Part shown: in pieces, positions 5,337 through 39,016 of the stretch
How the letters are laid out: every line of letters starts with the position of its first letter
Position numbering within the stretch: position 1 is the first letter of the stretch
NCBI GenBank assembly: GCA_002898075.1
Contig: BDSV01000096.1
Span: 1 to 57,687 of the forward strand
Length of the DNA stretch: 57,687 nucleotides
Direction: 5' to 3'
Source: a bacterium BMS3Abin03
GTDB lineage: Bacteria; Bacteroidota; Ignavibacteria; Ignavibacteriales; Ignavibacteriaceae
Notes under the pieces: model-generated
Database searches by the model: none
The model's input: only the letters and a program-made list of their open reading frames with translations
Told to the model about the DNA's origin: nothing
Program-made: the position numbers and the translations under genes

Positions 5337-5645
5337 TTATGTGTTTTTTTTCTGAGCTTCTACAAATGCTTTTAAAACAGCATTCATAAATGTTTGATAT
5401 CCCTTACCTTTTGATTTGCTTTTAAACCATTCTAAAACATCCTTATCTACTCTTAAGGATATTGCTTTTTTCTTTTCGGGCATAACTATTTTTGCATTCT
5501 TAAACCATTCCTTATCAAGTTCAGGTATTTCTGATGTATCTATTTGTTTATCAGATAATTCATCGAACTTTTTCCAATTGGTCTTGGATTTGGTTAATAT
5601 TTGTTCTTCTTGGTAACGAACGATATTCTTCTTCTTCTTCTTCAT
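5337..5645 (-). CDS. BrnA-like antitoxin without its BrnT partner
   Basis: 102 residues. The tail (KKKAISLRVDKDVLEWFKSK, GKGYQTFMNAVLKAFVEAQ) is the ribbon-helix-helix region of BrnA-type antitoxins, and the front half has the usual DxSEIPELDKEWF-like segment. In type II BrnTA modules brnT normally lies just upstream; here the upstream 156 bases hold no toxin frame. It is therefore an orphan antitoxin or regulator, possibly left after toxin loss. The start codon is followed by a run of lysines, and the exact start could be slightly later. Confidence 0.75.
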   Translation of the reverse strand: MKKKKKNIVRYQEEQILTKSKTNWKKFDELSDKQIDTSEIPELDKEWFKNAKIVMPEKKKAISLRVDKDVLEWFKSKSKGKGYQTFMNAVLKAFVEAQKKNT

Positions 5646-5741
5646 AAAAGTATAACTCTTTTATCAATTACTCACAATGATCAGTAGTTTTTATAAACCG
5701 TTAAAACGGTTAACTCGAAATATTTTTTGTTATCCATATAC

Positions 5742-30554: not shown

Positions 30555-32147
30555 CTATTTTAAAAGTATAATTTTTTGTGTTTTTAAAATATTCCCTGCC
30601 TGGAGAAAAATAATGTAAACACCGGAAACCAATCCACTTGCCGCAAAATTATAGTTGTAATTTCCTGCCAGCAGATGTGAATCCAATAATACTTTTATCG
30701 TTTCACCTAAAATATTTACGATCTGCAATTTTATATCCACTGCTTCGGGCAGGGTAAACGATATGTTAGTTGAAGGATTAAACGGATTCGGATAGCTTGG
30801 ATACAGAATTACATCCTGTGGAATAATATCATTATTATTATCATTAACATCAGAAATAATAAATGAAACATCTATGTTGAAAAACTGATTGTTGAGCGGA
30901 TCGATAGTAACGATTTGGCTAAATGCATTTTCAAAACCGATTTTTTGAGCAACTACTTCATAAGTACCATAGGGAATGTTTGTTATTCCATAGGTGCCCG
31001 TTTCTTTACCGAAGTTATAAGTATATAAAGCTTCTGTATCAATCGATCTGGCAAGAAGAGTTATTCCATCATAGTTAACAACGGGGTTTGTACCTGCAAA
31101 GTTAATGCTGCCGCTTATTAAACCGCCACCGTAAGATGAATCCCGAACAAGATTAATATTCTTATTCAAAATGGTATTATCTATCAATACCGAATCTCCG
31201 TCTATCCAATAGACAGAAGCATTTCCTTCCTCATTAAAATATCCCGGCAGGAAAAAATCGGTATATGCCTGTATATAATAGTAATCAGGAACTGCCATGT
31301 AAATTTTATATGAACCATCCTGTCTTACCAACCCGGAAAAAACATCACCGAAATTTGCTGTTTTAGGTACTGTTTCGTACGGTACGTGCGTACCTTTCCG
31401 TACAACTACTATTCCCCTATAGATCGGGAAAATATTTGTGGAGTCGAAAATACTGCCGGAAACAGAAAGATTTGTATCAGTAATACCGGTAAGTGAAAAA
31501 TTTACGCTAAGTGAATCGGACGATTCGAGTTCCAATTCAGTTGCAAAAAACGGATCGAAAGTATTATCGAAGTAAGTTACATAATATCCGTCGTGCTCTG
31601 CGGCTATAGTATAATCACCCTCCGGCAAAGTTATGCTGTAGCTGCCCGACACATCGGTTAGTGCCGTATCGAGCAAATAAATTCCTTCATAATAAAAATA
31701 GACATAGGTATCTTCGAGCGGATTCACACCGTCATCGACTATCCCGTTTATCTTGCCGTATTCATCTTCGAAAAAATCAATTTTTACGCTAAGTTTCCCG
31801 GGATTATTTTCCCCATTATTAAAAACATAAATCGTATCTGTGGTGTCTGTAATTTGCACAAATTGAAATCCGCTTAAAAGAACATTCATCATAACCGAAT
31901 CGCCGGGTAAAACCGTAAATGGAACTTGCTGATTGTTGGCAAAATCTATCAGATAAAATTCAGGGTTGAATTGAAGACTATCAATTGTAAGATTTACATC
32001 GCCTGTATTAATTAGATGTACATGTTTCAGCCGGTTGAAAATATCTTCGAACTCAATTTTGTTTGGTTTAATATCCAATTCGGGTTGCGCATAAGAAAGA
32101 CCAGCAATACAAAATGCTGATATAATAAAATATTTCACTAAAGACAT
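30555..32147 (-). CDS. Secreted protein with carboxypeptidase-regulatory-like repeats and a type IX sorting domain
   Basis: 530 residues. A signal peptide (ending LSYAQPELD) is followed by an ASPM/choice-of-anchor-like domain (residues 25-125) and several Ig-like carboxypeptidase-regulatory repeats, each with GTY- or GDY-type turns (SGSYSITLPEGDYTIAAEHD, TNIPYGTYEVVAQKIGF). The last 80 residues are a C-terminal sorting domain (SYPNPFNPSTNISFTLPEAV, ending LKTQKIILLK). The protein should cross the outer membrane by type IX secretion and be surface-attached or released. The function of the repeats is unknown. Confidence 0.82.
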   Translation of the reverse strand: MSLVKYFIISAFCIAGLSYAQPELDIKPNKIEFEDIFNRLKHVHLINTGDVNLTIDSLQFNPEFYLIDFANNQQVPFTVLPGDSVMMNVLLSGFQFVQITDTTDTIYVFNNGENNPGKLSVKIDFFEDEYGKINGIVDDGVNPLEDTYVYFYYEGIYLLDTALTDVSGSYSITLPEGDYTIAAEHDGYYVTYFDNTFDPFFATELELESSDSLSVNFSLTGITDTNLSVSGSIFDSTNIFPIYRGIVVVRKGTHVPYETVPKTANFGDVFSGLVRQDGSYKIYMAVPDYYYIQAYTDFFLPGYFNEEGNASVYWIDGDSVLIDNTILNKNINLVRDSSYGGGLISGSINFAGTNPVVNYDGITLLARSIDTEALYTYNFGKETGTYGITNIPYGTYEVVAQKIGFENAFSQIVTIDPLNNQFFNIDVSFIISDVNDNNNDIIPQDVILYPSYPNPFNPSTNISFTLPEAVDIKLQIVNILGETIKVLLDSHLLAGNYNYNFAASGLVSGVYIIFLQAGNILKTQKIILLK

Positions 32148-32268
32148 TTTTATCCTTTAAAAAGAATTTTAACATTTAGTTCCAATTTTAGTAATTTAGT
32201 GACAAAAATAAAGCGAGAAAAAAATAGATTATATATCGTTTTCAAAAATAGAATTAGATCAATTATTA

Positions 32269-32769
32269 ATGAGTTCCATAGACGGTAATTCTGCTGCCTT
32301 TAGTAAACTTTCGGAACACGTACGCGAAATTGCGTATTCTTATTTTCTTTCCAAACACCATTTAAAGAAAATTATTAACCTTGAGGATGTTGAAGATCTT
32401 ACTAACAACGTCTATCTAACTTTTGCCGAGCAGTATCATAATGTTGAAAACATTGAAAACTGGCTTCGAAGGGTGCTCTTTTTAACTTTCATTAAGTGGT
32501 ACAAACGAAATAAATTAACAAGTTCTTATGAGCTGAATAATAATATTGCTACAGATGGTAATCATAATAGAACGGCAGATATATTAGACACCGATATTAT
32601 TTTAAAGCTGCTCGATTCATTCAGCGATGAAAAACAGAAGATTATTAAACTGAGATTCTGGGGTGATCTGAAATTTCATGAAATTGCAGAGAAAATGCAT
32701 AAATCGGAAGTAGCCGTTAAGAAGATGTTCTATCGAACAATTGCAGAAATAAAAATCAAATTGAAATGA
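32269..32769 (+). CDS. ECF-type RNA polymerase sigma factor
   Basis: 166 residues. Region 2 includes NLEDVEDLTNNVYLTFAEQY and VENIENWLRRVLFLTFIKWY; region 4 has FSDEKQKIIKLRFWGDLKFH followed by the HTH EIAEKMHKSEVAVKKMFYR. It is the first gene of a three-gene set with an anti-sigma-like membrane protein (68-base gap) and a TPR-CHAT protease. It presumably directs transcription in response to a signal sensed by the next two proteins. Confidence 0.88.
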   Translation: MSSIDGNSAAFSKLSEHVREIAYSYFLSKHHLKKIINLEDVEDLTNNVYLTFAEQYHNVENIENWLRRVLFLTFIKWYKRNKLTSSYELNNNIATDGNHNRTADILDTDIILKLLDSFSDEKQKIIKLRFWGDLKFHEIAEKMHKSEVAVKKMFYRTIAEIKIKLK

Positions 32770-32837
32770 ATGTCACAAATGTTACGATTTAGGAACTATT
32801 TAATTGGGTAATCAAAACACGATATTAAGGCATTGAA

Positions 32838-33794
32838 ATGGAAAAATTGGAAAAAATACTCGACATTTTAGAGAATACTGATCCTTCGGATGCGGATAAA
32901 AAATACCTGGAAATGAATTTATCGGACGAAGATGTTGAGAAATTTGTAAATGTATATAACGTTCTGAAAAAAGTTCTTTCAGGTTCAATTCACCTTGACC
33001 CGGTTATTCTTGGAGATTATATTCTTTACAAACGAGGGAACGGCGATTCTGTCGAATATATTTCACTTGTGGCAGATAAAATAAAATCACATCTTAATTC
33101 CTGCGCTACTTGTTCAAAAGAGTATAATTTATTAACTGCAGAACTTGATTCAATAAATGACTTTTTAGGTAAGCGAATTACAGAAAAAAATAAAGAGCAG
33201 CCAACATTATTCTTATTTCAGAAATCTGTTAGTTTCAAATATGCAATAACTGCTGTGATGGTTATATTAATATCGTACTTTGGTTTGAGAGTGGTCTCGG
33301 ATATTTCTACTCCTTATTACAAGCAGCAAATATTTTCAGCCAAAGAGGAAAACAGCTATATAACGCGCGGGAGGAGAACCACCCTGTTTCAGAGGAGTCT
33401 GAACGCACTGGATAATAAAGAATATGATAAGGCAATTAAATTATTAAACGAAGATATTGTGCAGAATAAAAATGACAAATCAATATTTTATTCATATTAT
33501 GTGCTTGGAATTACTTACCTTAAAACTTCCGAGTCTGATTTTTTAGGCGCCTTCAAATCTTATGATAATACGAAAGTTCAGAAAGGTATAAACAATTTAG
33601 AAATATCGATTAAGAAAAACAGCAGCGGTTATTTTGAAAATATTAAGCTCGATGCTCATTACTATATTGCACGCGGTTATTTAATTATGGATGACATTTC
33701 CTCCGCTGAAAGTCATCTGAAAACGGTAGTTGAGAAACGTGGCAGGTTTTACAAAGCAGCGGAAGAACTTTTGAATTCGTTGAAGAAGAATTAA
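32838..33794 (+). CDS. Zinc-type anti-sigma factor with a membrane segment and TPR-like domain
   Basis: 318 residues. The N-terminal part (1-125) is predicted cytoplasmic and has a ZAS-like H-x3-C-x2-C site (H85, C89, C92 in SHLNSCATC). One membrane helix lies at about 133-152 (YAITAVMVILISYFGLRVV). The C-terminal part, on the other side of the membrane, has TPR-like helices (NALDNKEYDKAIKLLNEDIV, AHYYIARGYLIMDDISSAES). Layout and position after the sigma gene point to an anti-sigma factor released by cleavage. It lies 3 bases before the CHAT protease gene. Confidence 0.8.
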   Translation: MEKLEKILDILENTDPSDADKKYLEMNLSDEDVEKFVNVYNVLKKVLSGSIHLDPVILGDYILYKRGNGDSVEYISLVADKIKSHLNSCATCSKEYNLLTAELDSINDFLGKRITEKNKEQPTLFLFQKSVSFKYAITAVMVILISYFGLRVVSDISTPYYKQQIFSAKEENSYITRGRRTTLFQRSLNALDNKEYDKAIKLLNEDIVQNKNDKSIFYSYYVLGITYLKTSESDFLGAFKSYDNTKVQKGINNLEISIKKNSSGYFENIKLDAHYYIARGYLIMDDISSAESHLKTVVEKRGRFYKAAEELLNSLKKN

Positions 33795-33797
33795 TAA

Positions 33798-36700
33798 ATG
33801 TCTTTCAATCATCATCTGAAAATCATTTTACTTTCCATACTTATTGGCGCTGCCGGTTTAGCGAATCTTTCGTCATCTTACGAAGCAGGAAATAAAACGC
33901 ACCTGCAAAATAGTAAAAACCAAAATTTTGTAATCGAAGGGGAAAATCAATCCCGTTTCGATGAACTTGAATACAGCATAAGAAATAAAAAGATAGATGA
34001 TAAATCATCTTTTGAAAATGAAATACTCAAGCTTAGTAATGAATTTGAAAAAGAGTATTTGCTTGCAATATTTAAAAAGCGTTCGGGCGAATTCCAGGAA
34101 TCATATAATATCCTCTTAAAATTACTTCCCTCTACACCCATATATATCCGCTATTATGAAGAATTAGTCGAACTTGCTAATATTACCGATAATCTTAATC
34201 GACTAAAGCAGAAGCTTAATGAGCTTGTCAATAATAATTACAAGCTTTATCTAAAAGGGATAATCTCTTATAAAGAAGGAAGTTACGAGAATGCGATAAA
34301 GGATTTTCAAAAACTAATTAAGGATGATTTTTTGACAAAGGAAGTATATTATTGGTTAGCATACTTTAACAGAGGAATAGGCAACTATCAAAAAGGACTT
34401 GATTTATTAAATAAAGCGAGCAGGTTAACAGATGCTACCGATTTATATGCTCCGAGAATTACTTTAGAAATAGGATCACTCTACTATCTTTCGGGAAATT
34501 ATGAAGAAGCTTATAAGTATTATAAAAAGGGTTATGATGAGGCGCTGGAATTAAAAAATTTACCTTCGGAAATCCGCGGTCTTACAGACCTCGCTATTAT
34601 TAAAGATGAAACAGGCGATGTTGAAGCTGCACGCAAAAATCTGTTGGAGGCAATAGAAAAAGCAAAAACAATAGAAAATTTAGAACTGCTTGCTCATCTC
34701 TATTCGGAAATTGGTGTGTCATATAGTTTTACCAATGAATTAATTAAAGCACGCGATTATTATTCGAAGAGTTTCAACTTATATTCAAAATTGAACAACA
34801 GGGAAAGATTATCGTATTTATCCAGCAATATTGCTTCAATTTATCTGCAGACTGCCAGCTACAAGGAAGCGCTCCGGCATTACAATGATGGATTGAACTA
34901 TGCCGGTGAAAACGTACTTGGACAAATATTAAATTTAACCGGAATTGCCGATGTTTATACGAACATGGCAAATTACTCCAAATCGTTGGAATATTATAAC
35001 AAAGCAAGAGATTTAGCCAAATCAATAAATGATATTTCCTCGGTAGCAAAGGTTGAAATCGGACTGGGATCGCTTTATTACAACATTAACAGCCCTAAAT
35101 CTTCGCTAAACTTTTTTTATAATGCAGATAAAATTATTAAACCCGGCGATATGCCCTTTCTCGCTGCAGATATTTATTTAAAGATTGCTACAGTAGAAAC
35201 TTCTTTGAAAAATTACAAAACAGCGGAAGAGTATTTTAATAAGGGTTTGAAAATTACCGAAGCTACCGGCGATATTTATTATAACACACTTACAAGAACG
35301 GAGTTCGCTAATGCATCGATTGAACAAGGGAAATTATCGAAAGCGGAATCTTTACTCGATGAAGCTGTTAAAATGGCGCGGGAATACGATTTTAAGCAGT
35401 TAATCGGTTTACAGGAACTTTATTTCGGGAAGATTAATAACATTGAAGGCGGTTATGAAAAGGCATTAAAGCATTTCAAAAAAGCATATAATTTCAGCTC
35501 GGTTACAAACGATTTTAATAATCAGATAGAAGCAGGTTTTTTTATTGCGAAAACAGAAGTGAAAAATAATCCGGTGGAAGCTGAAAAATGGTTTAAATCT
35601 ACCATAGAATTAATAGAACGTATTTCTAATCCACTGGTTTCAAATTCGGAAGTGCAAATCTCTCACTTCGCCGCATTCAATGAAGTATATAAATCATTAA
35701 TTAATTTTTATCTTTCAAATAATAAAACAAAAGAAGCATATAACTATCTGGAAAGGTCCCGCTCGAGGAACACATTGCAAAATCTTGTTAACCTCAAATT
35801 GATAAATTCTAATATCGATGAGAGAAAAATAACCAGGTATGCTGATTTGAAATGGATGATAGAATCAAAATTGTACGACGATGAAGATGTTAATAAATTT
35901 ACCGGTGAGCTTGATACTCTGGAGAAAGAGTTTACAACAAAAAATAAAAATCTTGTAAGGATAATGGATCAAAATCAAGCGCTTAATTTGCAGAATATTC
36001 AAAATAATCTCGAAGGAGATGAAACCGTTATTTCATTTTTTATAACCGATGATTACATCCAATCCTTTTTAGTTGACAGCTCTAATTTCAAATCGGAAAG
36101 AATTTATACCGGCAGAGATGAACTAATTTCACTTATAAAAGAAATCACCCCACTGTATAAATCAATTATAACAAGGGATGAACTATTTATTAACCAGGAT
36201 CTGTTTGCGTTCAATGCCCGGTCGGCAGGAAAATTGTACGAAATTATTTTTAAAGACCTGCTTAAAAATATTCCGGACGGAAGAAAAATAATTTTTTCTT
36301 TGCCAAATGAATTATTAATTGTCCCGATTGAATTCTTAGTTACGGATTGGGATGATGACCAGAGCCAGTATTATTATGCTGATAAAACTTTTCTAATTGA
36401 AAAATACCCGATATCATATACACCATCAGCATCAATTTATATCCGCCAGAAAAAAAGCGAACGAAATACAGGCGGTAAAATACTTTTAGTTGGTGACCCC
36501 GATATCACCAATAAGGAATTTACACTAAGCTATAGAAGCGGATTGTTAGAAGACGGTGCATCTTCAATGAGAAATATTAAGTTGTTTCCGCTCGAGTTTT
36601 CTAAAGATGAAATTATAAGTATTGATGCATTGGTGAATAATGATGTTGTATTGCTTTCGAAAGATGCAACTGAAACTAACCTGAAGAAAAACGCTCCCGG

Positions 36701-37262
36701 CAGTAAAATAATACATCTATCGACACATTCATTTTTATATAAAGATCAACCTTTGATAATTCTATCACCAACAGATGATCGAATAAATGACGGATTTTTA
36801 GAAATGGGAGAAATAGTTCAGATGAATTTGAATACTGAATTAGTTGTATTGAGTTCCTGCCGTTCCGGATTAGGTAAGATAGATGAAGCAGAGGGTATCT
36901 TAGGAATGCAGAAATCATTTTATGAAGCCGGAGCAAACAGTATTATAGTTTCATTATGGGATGTAAACGATAAATACACAGCTATTTTTATGAAAATATT
37001 TTATAAACATTTAACCGGTGGTGAAAATAAAACGGAAGCATTACGCTTAGCAAAAATAGAATTCATAAAAAATTACTCTCCGAATCCGTATTACTGGTCT
37101 GCGTTTATTTTAGCCGGTGATGTTTCAAAGATTCAGTTTACTTCAAAGCAATCCGATATGTATTACTACATACTTGGTGTGTTTATTCTTATTGCGGCAG
37201 GGCTGATCCTAAAACAGAGATATAAATTATACCGTCAATCACAATCGCTAAAAATTACGTAG
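33798..37262 (+). CDS. TPR-CHAT protease, exported and membrane-anchored
   Basis: 1154 residues. A hydrophobic N terminus (LKIILLSILIGAAGLANLSS) looks like a signal peptide. Many TPR helices follow (about 50-680; SLYYLSGNYEEAYKYYKKGY, IADVYTNMANYSKSLEYYNK). A CHAT domain (about 720-1110) has the caspase-like dyad H977 (IIHLSTHSFLY) and C1021 (VVLSSCRSGLG), plus YYWSAFILAGD. A last membrane helix (YYYILGVFILIAAGLIL) precedes a basic tail. TPR and protease parts should face the periplasm, beside the TPR part of the anti-sigma factor. CHAT proteins are caspase-like proteases; the substrate proposed here is inferred. Confidence 0.85.
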   Translation: MSFNHHLKIILLSILIGAAGLANLSSSYEAGNKTHLQNSKNQNFVIEGENQSRFDELEYSIRNKKIDDKSSFENEILKLSNEFEKEYLLAIFKKRSGEFQESYNILLKLLPSTPIYIRYYEELVELANITDNLNRLKQKLNELVNNNYKLYLKGIISYKEGSYENAIKDFQKLIKDDFLTKEVYYWLAYFNRGIGNYQKGLDLLNKASRLTDATDLYAPRITLEIGSLYYLSGNYEEAYKYYKKGYDEALELKNLPSEIRGLTDLAIIKDETGDVEAARKNLLEAIEKAKTIENLELLAHLYSEIGVSYSFTNELIKARDYYSKSFNLYSKLNNRERLSYLSSNIASIYLQTASYKEALRHYNDGLNYAGENVLGQILNLTGIADVYTNMANYSKSLEYYNKARDLAKSINDISSVAKVEIGLGSLYYNINSPKSSLNFFYNADKIIKPGDMPFLAADIYLKIATVETSLKNYKTAEEYFNKGLKITEATGDIYYNTLTRTEFANASIEQGKLSKAESLLDEAVKMAREYDFKQLIGLQELYFGKINNIEGGYEKALKHFKKAYNFSSVTNDFNNQIEAGFFIAKTEVKNNPVEAEKWFKSTIELIERISNPLVSNSEVQISHFAAFNEVYKSLINFYLSNNKTKEAYNYLERSRSRNTLQNLVNLKLINSNIDERKITRYADLKWMIESKLYDDEDVNKFTGELDTLEKEFTTKNKNLVRIMDQNQALNLQNIQNNLEGDETVISFFITDDYIQSFLVDSSNFKSERIYTGRDELISLIKEITPLYKSIITRDELFINQDLFAFNARSAGKLYEIIFKDLLKNIPDGRKIIFSLPNELLIVPIEFLVTDWDDDQSQYYYADKTFLIEKYPISYTPSASIYIRQKKSERNTGGKILLVGDPDITNKEFTLSYRSGLLEDGASSMRNIKLFPLEFSKDEIISIDALVNNDVVLLSKDATETNLKKNAPGSKIIHLSTHSFLYKDQPLIILSPTDDRINDGFLEMGEIVQMNLNTELVVLSSCRSGLGKIDEAEGILGMQKSFYEAGANSIIVSLWDVNDKYTAIFMKIFYKHLTGGENKTEALRLAKIEFIKNYSPNPYYWSAFILAGDVSKIQFTSKQSDMYYYILGVFILIAAGLILKQRYKLYRQSQSLKIT

Positions 37263-37528: not shown

Positions 37529-39016
37529 TCACCTTACAAGCAGCATTTTTTTTGTTATGATTTGATTTCCTGCCCGTAATTGGTAAAAATACACACCGCT
37601 GCTAATGACGTTATTCCGGGATGTGTTAAATTCAACTTCATAAATACCGGGTTGCTTTTCCTCGTTAACAAGGGCAGCTACTTCGTTGCCTAAAACATCA
37701 TAAACCCTTATACTGATAAATTGCCTGCTGCTTACTGCATACCGTATATTTGTAGATGGATTGAACGGGTTTGGATAGTTTTGATAAAGTATAAATTCAT
37801 CAGGGATTTTATTCCCATCATTTTCAACCGATGTGATGTTCATTTTATATAATGATAAGATACCGCCGTCAGGGATAACCTCTGCCATTACAACTCTACT
37901 GGAATCTTTATTAAATGCAGTAAGTGTATCTATGCGATCGCCTTGCAACATTAATACAAAATTCCAATCAGCCGGGACAGTGATAAATGAAGTTAAGGGA
38001 TAATTAAATATCTCATCGTCCAAATTATCAGTAACATTTAATTTAATCTGATCTTCATCAGCCATTAGCAAATTGTAAGTATAGGAATCTCTCTCTTTAA
38101 CATATCGTGTTACAAAACCGACTGGAGCAACCCAGATTTCGTTATTTTCTGTACGGTTATAAACCCATTCACAGAGAGCTTGCAGCCATTGGTTTGACAA
38201 AGGATTCCACGCACCTGCCGCTATTAGTCCTGCTAAAGAATCGTACGGAACAGATTCGTGTGCTAAGAATATACTCCAGTCTCCTTTAATAATAGATGAA
38301 TCAATCAGGTTTTTAATAAATTCTAATTCATCAAGATCATCTTCGGGAGTATTTCTCGGTTCATCAAAAATAGTCTCGATTGCGTTTAGAGAATACCATT
38401 GCATTCCTGTTATTGAAGGCGGATTAGGTTCGCCAGTAACGCCACGTGCCGATTCATAATACAAGGAAGCTATGGAATCTACGATTTCGTTGTGCTCAGC
38501 ATAAGGATATGCAAAGGTAATACATGCTTGTGTAGTAATTCGCTGCCGGATTAATTGCCTCGACCAATAAAGTTCATAGCTAATTGTTCCTTCGGTTAAA
38601 GTATCGCCAGTTTCTAATTCCGGTAAATGCGGGTGTGTCATCGAATGCGAACCAATTTCGTGTCCTTCCAATGCCATTGCTTCAAACATAGGCCATGTTC
38701 CGTAACGCCAAATTCCGGGTAATTCTTCCGTTAAAAATAATGGCAAAACATAAAATGTTCCTCTAAAACCGAATTGATTCAAAATCGGTCTGATATTCTC
38801 AAATTGGGAAATGAAGCTGTCATCAAATGAAAATGAAAATGCGGATTTACGATCACTTTTCCATTCAGCAACCTGAAAATTCCCGACACTATCAGAAGTA
38901 TTGTTTAGATTATCTCCATTCCCTCCAAAGGATAAATTAGTAAAAAATAATAGAATGGCAATTAAAAAAGTTAATCTAATCGTCAAATATTTTCTTAATG
39001 CAAATATTTCTAACAT
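37529..39016 (-). CDS. Secreted polysaccharide deacetylase with a type IX sorting domain
   Basis: 495 residues. A signal region at about 10-32 (LTIRLTFLIAILLFFTNLSF) precedes the NodB fold: FSFSFDDSFISQFENIRPIL (metal Asp pair), GTFYVLPLF, and the metal His motif GHEIGSHSMTHPHL (H-x3-H), then FAYPYAEHNEI. Residues about 415-495 are a sorting domain (LYQNYPNPFNPSTNIRYAVS, ending ITKKMLLVR). It probably removes acetyl groups from an extracellular polysaccharide after export by type IX secretion. The gene lies between two 50-base direct repeats. Confidence 0.85.
   Translation of the reverse strand: MLEIFALRKYLTIRLTFLIAILLFFTNLSFGGNGDNLNNTSDSVGNFQVAEWKSDRKSAFSFSFDDSFISQFENIRPILNQFGFRGTFYVLPLFLTEELPGIWRYGTWPMFEAMALEGHEIGSHSMTHPHLPELETGDTLTEGTISYELYWSRQLIRQRITTQACITFAYPYAEHNEIVDSIASLYYESARGVTGEPNPPSITGMQWYSLNAIETIFDEPRNTPEDDLDELEFIKNLIDSSIIKGDWSIFLAHESVPYDSLAGLIAAGAWNPLSNQWLQALCEWVYNRTENNEIWVAPVGFVTRYVKERDSYTYNLLMADEDQIKLNVTDNLDDEIFNYPLTSFITVPADWNFVLMLQGDRIDTLTAFNKDSSRVVMAEVIPDGGILSLYKMNITSVENDGNKIPDEFILYQNYPNPFNPSTNIRYAVSSRQFISIRVYDVLGNEVAALVNEEKQPGIYEVEFNTSRNNVISSGVYFYQLRAGNQIITKKMLLVR

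Follow-up and report, generated by a model that had tools for sequence, protein, structure and literature searches.

The question raised by this locus is whether a caspase-like protease could control a sigma factor from the bacterial envelope by cutting the anti-sigma factor encoded beside it. The window analyzed here is a 57,687-nt stretch of DNA from the bacterium BMS3Abin03 (contig BDSV01000096.1), in which genes for an extracytoplasmic function (ECF) sigma factor (32224..32769, counted from its probable start), a membrane anti-sigma factor (32838..33794) and a 1154-aa protein combining tetratricopeptide repeats with a CHAT peptidase domain (TPR-CHAT protein; 33798..37262) lie consecutively on the + strand, separated by gaps of 68 bp and 3 bp, respectively. 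An original prediction, made from the sequence by itself, had taken the three genes for one signaling system. We found that they form a conserved unit in Ignavibacteriales together with a fourth, divergent gene (30555..32147, - strand) encoding a protein sorted by the type IX secretion system (T9SS). As far as the searchable literature tells, this four-gene module was previously undescribed, and it has two known relatives of its kind. On balance, the sequence comparisons lead us to favor an envelope signaling module in which the CHAT protein would cut the anti-sigma near residue R177 to free the sigma factor.

The linkage was surveyed in 164 genomes of Ignavibacteriales and, more closely, in 59 relatives. 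The anti-sigma was found in 37 of the 164 genomes, and in 35 of these the CHAT gene was adjacent or the locus was cut by a contig end. The order sigma, anti-sigma, TPR-CHAT was kept in all extracted loci except those of genomes G004 and G044 and a second copy in G029, which is a sigma/anti-sigma fusion without CHAT. A scan with PF12770 detected no CHAT protein in G004, G044, G001, or G002. Among the 59 relatives, close CHAT orthologs (E < 1e-79) adjoined the sigma and anti-sigma genes except at contig ends, as the original prediction had anticipated; the records of the closest orthologs are assigned to Ignavibacteriales, Ignavibacteriaceae, Melioribacteraceae, or simply Bacteroidetes. Chance adjacency of the three genes was rejected on the strength of this order-wide linkage. 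In a wider search with the ortholog CHAT alignment, the orthologs were followed by a sharp drop in match quality, from E ~1e-83 to 1e-50, with the subsequent matches coming from Acidobacteria and other groups. Of 67 distant CHAT loci, 13 had an ECF sigma gene, as defined by a home-made profile, no more than 4 kb away, with none among the cyanobacterial ones, and several of the CHAT-ECF loci also carried a one-helix anti-sigma-like gene. The CHAT-ECF neighborhood therefore recurs in other phyla, yet it is no general property of CHAT proteins. A CHAT gene commonly occurring without the sigma/anti-sigma pair had been named as an outcome that would refute a joint system; the ortholog group studied here practically always accompanies the pair, whereas CHAT proteins at large do not.

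Three side observations bear on the distribution of these genes. At locus L058 (2933-4396), a sigma/anti-sigma fusion without CHAT measures 487 aa, in a genome that also holds a CHAT-linked copy. A second, shorter TPR-CHAT family (~950-1050 aa) was seen at L048, L049, L050, and L051, where the neighboring genes include a sigma-like one and one for an anti-sigma-like protein with a single helix and no TPRs; in the Pfam scan, which covered L048, L049, and L051, the sigma and zinc-finger domains were confirmed for L048 alone. Loci L104-L112, from other classes of the phylum, pair an ECF sigma with a TPR anti-sigma but have no CHAT gene beside them; the genomes in question do encode a CHAT protein of ~900-940 aa at another site, in many cases no more than 50-100 kb away.

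The fourth member of the module, missed by the original prediction, encodes a signal peptide, CarboxypepD_reg domains, and a T9SS C-terminal sorting domain. Wherever the flanking sequence can be seen, an ortholog adjoins the module; it mostly diverges from the sigma gene and, in part of the order, lies directly 3′ of the CHAT gene. CarboxypepD_reg and the sorting domain (Por_Secre_tail) were present in 14/14 aligned copies, and the T9SS translocon protein SprA is encoded in the same genome, so that the protein qualifies as T9SS cargo. The cargo gene is gone from both genomes that lost CHAT (G004 and G044).

The TPR-CHAT protein, characterized by its domains, hydropathy, and fold, is the single CHAT protein of its genome. 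Its CHAT domain scored 201 bits against PF12770 (cut-off 24), and both the His/Cys dyad and the fold, whose model matches separase and Csx29, place it among the CHAT peptidases. The catalytic residues H977 (codon 36726..36728) and C1021 (36858..36860), the latter being the sole Cys of the protein, are invariant in 30/30 orthologs, and an inactive CHAT domain was rejected on this ground. D1058 of the sequence SLWDVND (36969..36971) is invariant in 29/29 aligned orthologs, and the columns of all three residues are invariant among 25 diverse CHAT proteins. In separase, an Asp in the SLWxVxD region holds the P1 arginine; by analogy, D1058 is a candidate S1-pocket acid for arginine, which is consistent with cutting after arginine but does not prove it. 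The protein begins with a hydrophobic, signal-like segment (aa 1-25, hydrophobic at aa 7-25; 33798..33872) and ends in a transmembrane anchor (aa ~1120-1138; 37155..37211) with a +5 tail, seen in the sequence and in orthologs. By hydropathy, 27 of the 28 full-length orthologs have a periplasmic TPR-CHAT part, in agreement with the periplasm-facing topology originally proposed. As a separate observation, the CHAT gene has shrunk to a small open reading frame (ORF) in G004, G002, and probably G001 (L052 5945-6289, L055 3854-4204, and L056 ~5426-5660). These ORFs, ~115 aa long in L052 and L055, retain both the hydrophobic N-terminus and the membrane anchor at the C-terminus, and they may still be constrained, since the dN/dS ratio between two of them is ~0.36.

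The 318-aa anti-sigma combines a cytoplasmic domain resembling the zinc-binding anti-sigma (ZAS) type with one membrane helix (aa 131-157; 33228..33308; sequence and model) and an outer TPR domain. Its HxxxCxxC motif (H85, C89, C92; 33090..33113) and single helix give it the structure of a ZAS-type membrane anti-sigma, and we predict it to be the inhibitor of the sigma factor. Each of the three motif residues is 94% conserved in CHAT-linked copies, with the Cys pair missing in a minority of orthologs (L033, L046); the Pfam zf-HC2 model gave no match. The AlphaFold2 (AF2) model, with a mean predicted local distance difference test (pLDDT) of 86.8, consists of a helical cytoplasmic part, a disordered segment (115-127), the membrane helix, a less certain linker and, on the outer side, a coil (173-181) followed by the TPR domain (182-317). 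TPR_2 was matched in 14 of 18 orthologs, and the best fold match was the TPR domain of YbgF. Thus, the features on which the original prediction was built, i.e., consecutive genes, a ZAS-like site with one helix and outer TPRs in the anti-sigma, and a signal-like N-terminus, H977/C1021 dyad, and C-terminal anchor in the CHAT protein, were borne out.

A further feature, overlooked in the original prediction, is an RGR motif (aa 177-179; 33366..33374) in the coil that precedes the first TPR helix of the anti-sigma, which we propose from its conservation and from the model as a site for CHAT cleavage or docking. Between the membrane helix and the TPRs, the linker varies, most positions from 160 to 175 showing 18-48% identity; R177 is nevertheless kept in 33/33 CHAT-linked anti-sigmas, and G178 and R179 in 30/33 each, giving (T)RGR as the motif of these copies. 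In the CHAT-less anti-sigmas, R177 is kept in 0/3, the residue being Q, G, and Q, and the whole RGR is present in 30/33 CHAT-linked versus 0/3 CHAT-less copies (Fisher p 0.003). When conserved columns were defined by an identity of ≥85%, the alignment held 26, of which 21 are periplasmic; R177 and G178 alone were altered in all three CHAT-less copies, and these copies still retain 16-17 of the 21 conserved periplasmic columns. A remote family with TPR-CHAT genes of its own, some of them cut by contig ends, has ARG or VRG at the equivalent position in four of five copies. Because R177 is kept with CHAT and replaced without it while the other conserved periplasmic positions mostly persist, these results point to R177 as a cleavage or docking site for CHAT.

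Several observations weigh against this interpretation. The motif was spotted before its test was made and the CHAT-less copies number three, for which reason we regard the association as a strong suggestion and no proof; one of the three is, moreover, a fused sigma/anti-sigma that also lacks the zinc site. Three CHAT-linked copies (L046, L047, and L147, the last two sharing one genus) have the R without RGR. RG is found in three remote anti-sigmas (L110-L112) without an adjacent CHAT gene, in genomes that encode CHAT elsewhere; remote anti-sigmas in this situation have RG in some cases and not in others, and are uninformative either way. Lastly, the promoter-like block upstream of the sigma gene did not exceed background elsewhere in six genomes, so that no wider regulon was identified.

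In the mechanism that we favor, the ZAS-like domain of the anti-sigma would hold the ECF sigma at the inner membrane, and its outer part, carried on the variable linker that ends in RGR, would face the membrane-anchored periplasmic TPR-CHAT protein. A signal reaching the TPR superhelix would cause CHAT to make a site-1 cut in the anti-sigma, at R177 or beside it, after which ordinary intramembrane and cytoplasmic proteases would probably remove the remaining stub. The freed sigma would activate its own promoter and the module. The T9SS cargo could be the input, its periplasmic passage or build-up being sensed by CHAT, or it could be a co-regulated output. The most specific version, in which a periplasmic caspase-family site-1 protease of an ECF pathway is triggered by the T9SS cargo, so that export state is sensed through cleavage of the anti-sigma after arginine, is less probable and is put forward tentatively.

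Cleavage of the anti-sigma has to be weighed against binding alone. R177 might be a docking point, with the CHAT protein, perhaps via its TPRs, sensing a signal and altering the hold of the anti-sigma on the sigma by contact. TPR domains occur on both partners, DdvA, a relative discussed below, fuses a TPR-CHAT part to an anti-sigma so that a CHAT domain acting as a binding sensor is conceivable, and the loss of R177 with CHAT suits docking as well as cutting. However, a pure binding module would have no need of a dyad that is invariant in 30/30 orthologs, and RGR has the features expected for a protease site, being short, basic, and located in a coil; we therefore consider docking without cleavage rather unlikely. 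We counted the position of RGR between membrane helix and TPRs, together with the precedents of Csx29 and DdvA, in favor of CHAT cutting the anti-sigma.

A different substrate is a less likely explanation still. CHAT might act mainly on the adjacent T9SS cargo, or on another envelope protein, with sigma and anti-sigma merely controlling expression of CHAT and cargo on some other cue. The conservation of the cargo gene, its loss with CHAT, and the conserved block in the divergent intergenic region that it shares with the sigma gene would all suit this arrangement, but it leaves unexplained why the anti-sigma loses R177-G178 upon loss of CHAT and why sigma and anti-sigma outlive CHAT in G004 and G044. 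That CHAT is a plain sigma-controlled effector, e.g., a stress protease with no part in sigma activation, would be in line with its place at the end of the operon, with the frequent inclusion of targets in ECF operons, and with the remote sigma/TPR anti-sigma pairs that have no neighboring CHAT gene, but we consider it very improbable given that those genomes still encode CHAT elsewhere, that R177 is lost in correlation with CHAT, and that CHAT proteins acting on sigma inhibitors have precedents.

The closest precedent, which the original prediction had overlooked, is DdvA-DdvS of Myxococcus xanthus (PDB 8rot, 8rw5), a transmembrane anti-sigma and ECF sigma pair with a TPR-CHAT part. Fold matches to our TPR-CHAT model were, in order, DdvA (E 8e-16), separase, and Craspase/Csx29, and both the His and the Cys of the dyad are present in the DdvA alignment. 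A PDB sequence search with an ortholog-only CHAT profile returned nothing useful; a broader CHAT profile retrieved Csx29 and DdvA. The sigma of DdvA-DdvS is active once its anti-sigma is inactivated, and the activating signal was reported to be unknown (PMC4374960). DdvA is a single polypeptide, whereas the Ignavibacteriales module comprises two proteins, encoded by two genes in all loci examined, and its anti-sigma has TPRs of its own; by this analogy, the module is a split counterpart of DdvA. Further differences are the absence of the SLWxVxD motif from DdvA, the CBASS-CRISPR-Cas island that DdvA controls, and the T9SS cargo gene that belongs to the module. Among 13 window proteins scanned against PADLOC-DB, none was a Cas protein, and a CRISPR or defense island was rejected on this basis. 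The idea put forward in the original prediction is thus not without precedent, since DdvA is the closest structural relative.

The analogy to Craspase drawn in the original prediction proved real: in CASP, a type III-E CRISPR system, the TPR-CHAT protease Csx29, which has the same fold as the protein described here, cuts Csx30, an inhibitor of the ECF-like CASP-sigma (PMC10028731). CASP/Craspase systems have Cas7-11/gRAMP and Csx30 encoded beside the TPR-CHAT gene; with no Cas protein among the 13 scanned and a membrane ZAS-type anti-sigma as partner, our locus is not one of them. Craspase is RNA-activated through Cas7-11, its substrate is not a membrane ZAS-type anti-sigma, and its TPR-CHAT protein has no Asp equivalent to D1058 (WKVRSNKT). 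The proposed logic also resembles the regulated intramembrane proteolysis of DegS-RseA-RpoE and RsiW, in which an ECF sigma is released once its single-pass anti-sigma has undergone site-1 cleavage in the periplasm; DegS is a PDZ serine protease, whereas a caspase-like cysteine protease is proposed here. The ECF54 group likewise has CHAT and carboxypeptidase-type domains in its gene neighborhood (PMC8999054), but it was described without an anti-sigma and with an actinobacterial representative, in contrast to the dedicated anti-sigma found here. In the PorA-PorXY-SigP pathway of Porphyromonas gingivalis, the T9SS C-terminal-domain protein PorA feeds ECF sigma signaling (PMC7712824); that pathway uses a two-component system and no CHAT protease, and the likeness of PorA to the cargo is one of description. 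If CHAT does cut the anti-sigma, caspase-like control of transcription would move beyond CRISPR immunity into the bacterial envelope, a new class of site-1 protease would be added to anti-sigma regulation, and the function of TPR-CHAT within DdvA would be easier to explain. The system is genetically small, with a candidate cleavage site and catalytic residues that are open to single-change tests.

The sigma factor, 166 aa when counted from the earlier start at 32269, matched Sigma70_r4_2 (1.5e-7, over the cut-off) and TIGR02937 (54.7 bits versus a cut-off of 42.9, aa 11-165), and has the regions 2 and 4 without further domains that define the ECF sigma-70 family; the Pfam scan gave no match to region 2. 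Conserved N-terminal residues are encoded upstream of 32269, so that the true start is probably an ATA near 32224. Such residues upstream of the first NTG were seen in the window (32212-32268) and in the sigma genes of L032, L034, L043, L052, L053, and L134-L139. Only ATA or ATC fits as a start in ~12 relatives, and TTG is the usual one in the rest of the order; this pattern suggests that the gene is weakly initiated from AUA/AUC.

A promoter-like block, TTAGT-N17-AGTGAC (32176..32203, + strand), lies upstream of the sigma gene. The divergent loci carry TTAGT-N16/17-AGTGAC at a fixed distance 5′ of sigma, L054 among them despite its loss of the divergent gene; the non-divergent loci do not have it 5′ of sigma. 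The promoter search through which the original prediction had hoped to find the sigma regulon was unproductive, as counts of TTAGT-N15-18-AGTGAC in the six genomes were close to those of a reversed control, with no enrichment. Probably, the sigma factor regulates its own gene through a promoter at this block and has a small regulon.

Elsewhere in the window, two PADLOC-DB matches, to pVip and RtcR, were identified by Pfam as a MoaA-like protein and a plain sigma-54 response regulator and were discarded. Directly 3′ of the TPR-CHAT gene, on the opposite strand, lies a polysaccharide deacetylase gene with a T9SS sorting domain (37529-39016). It is probably unrelated to the module, since it is kept in G004 (60% identity) despite the loss of CHAT there.

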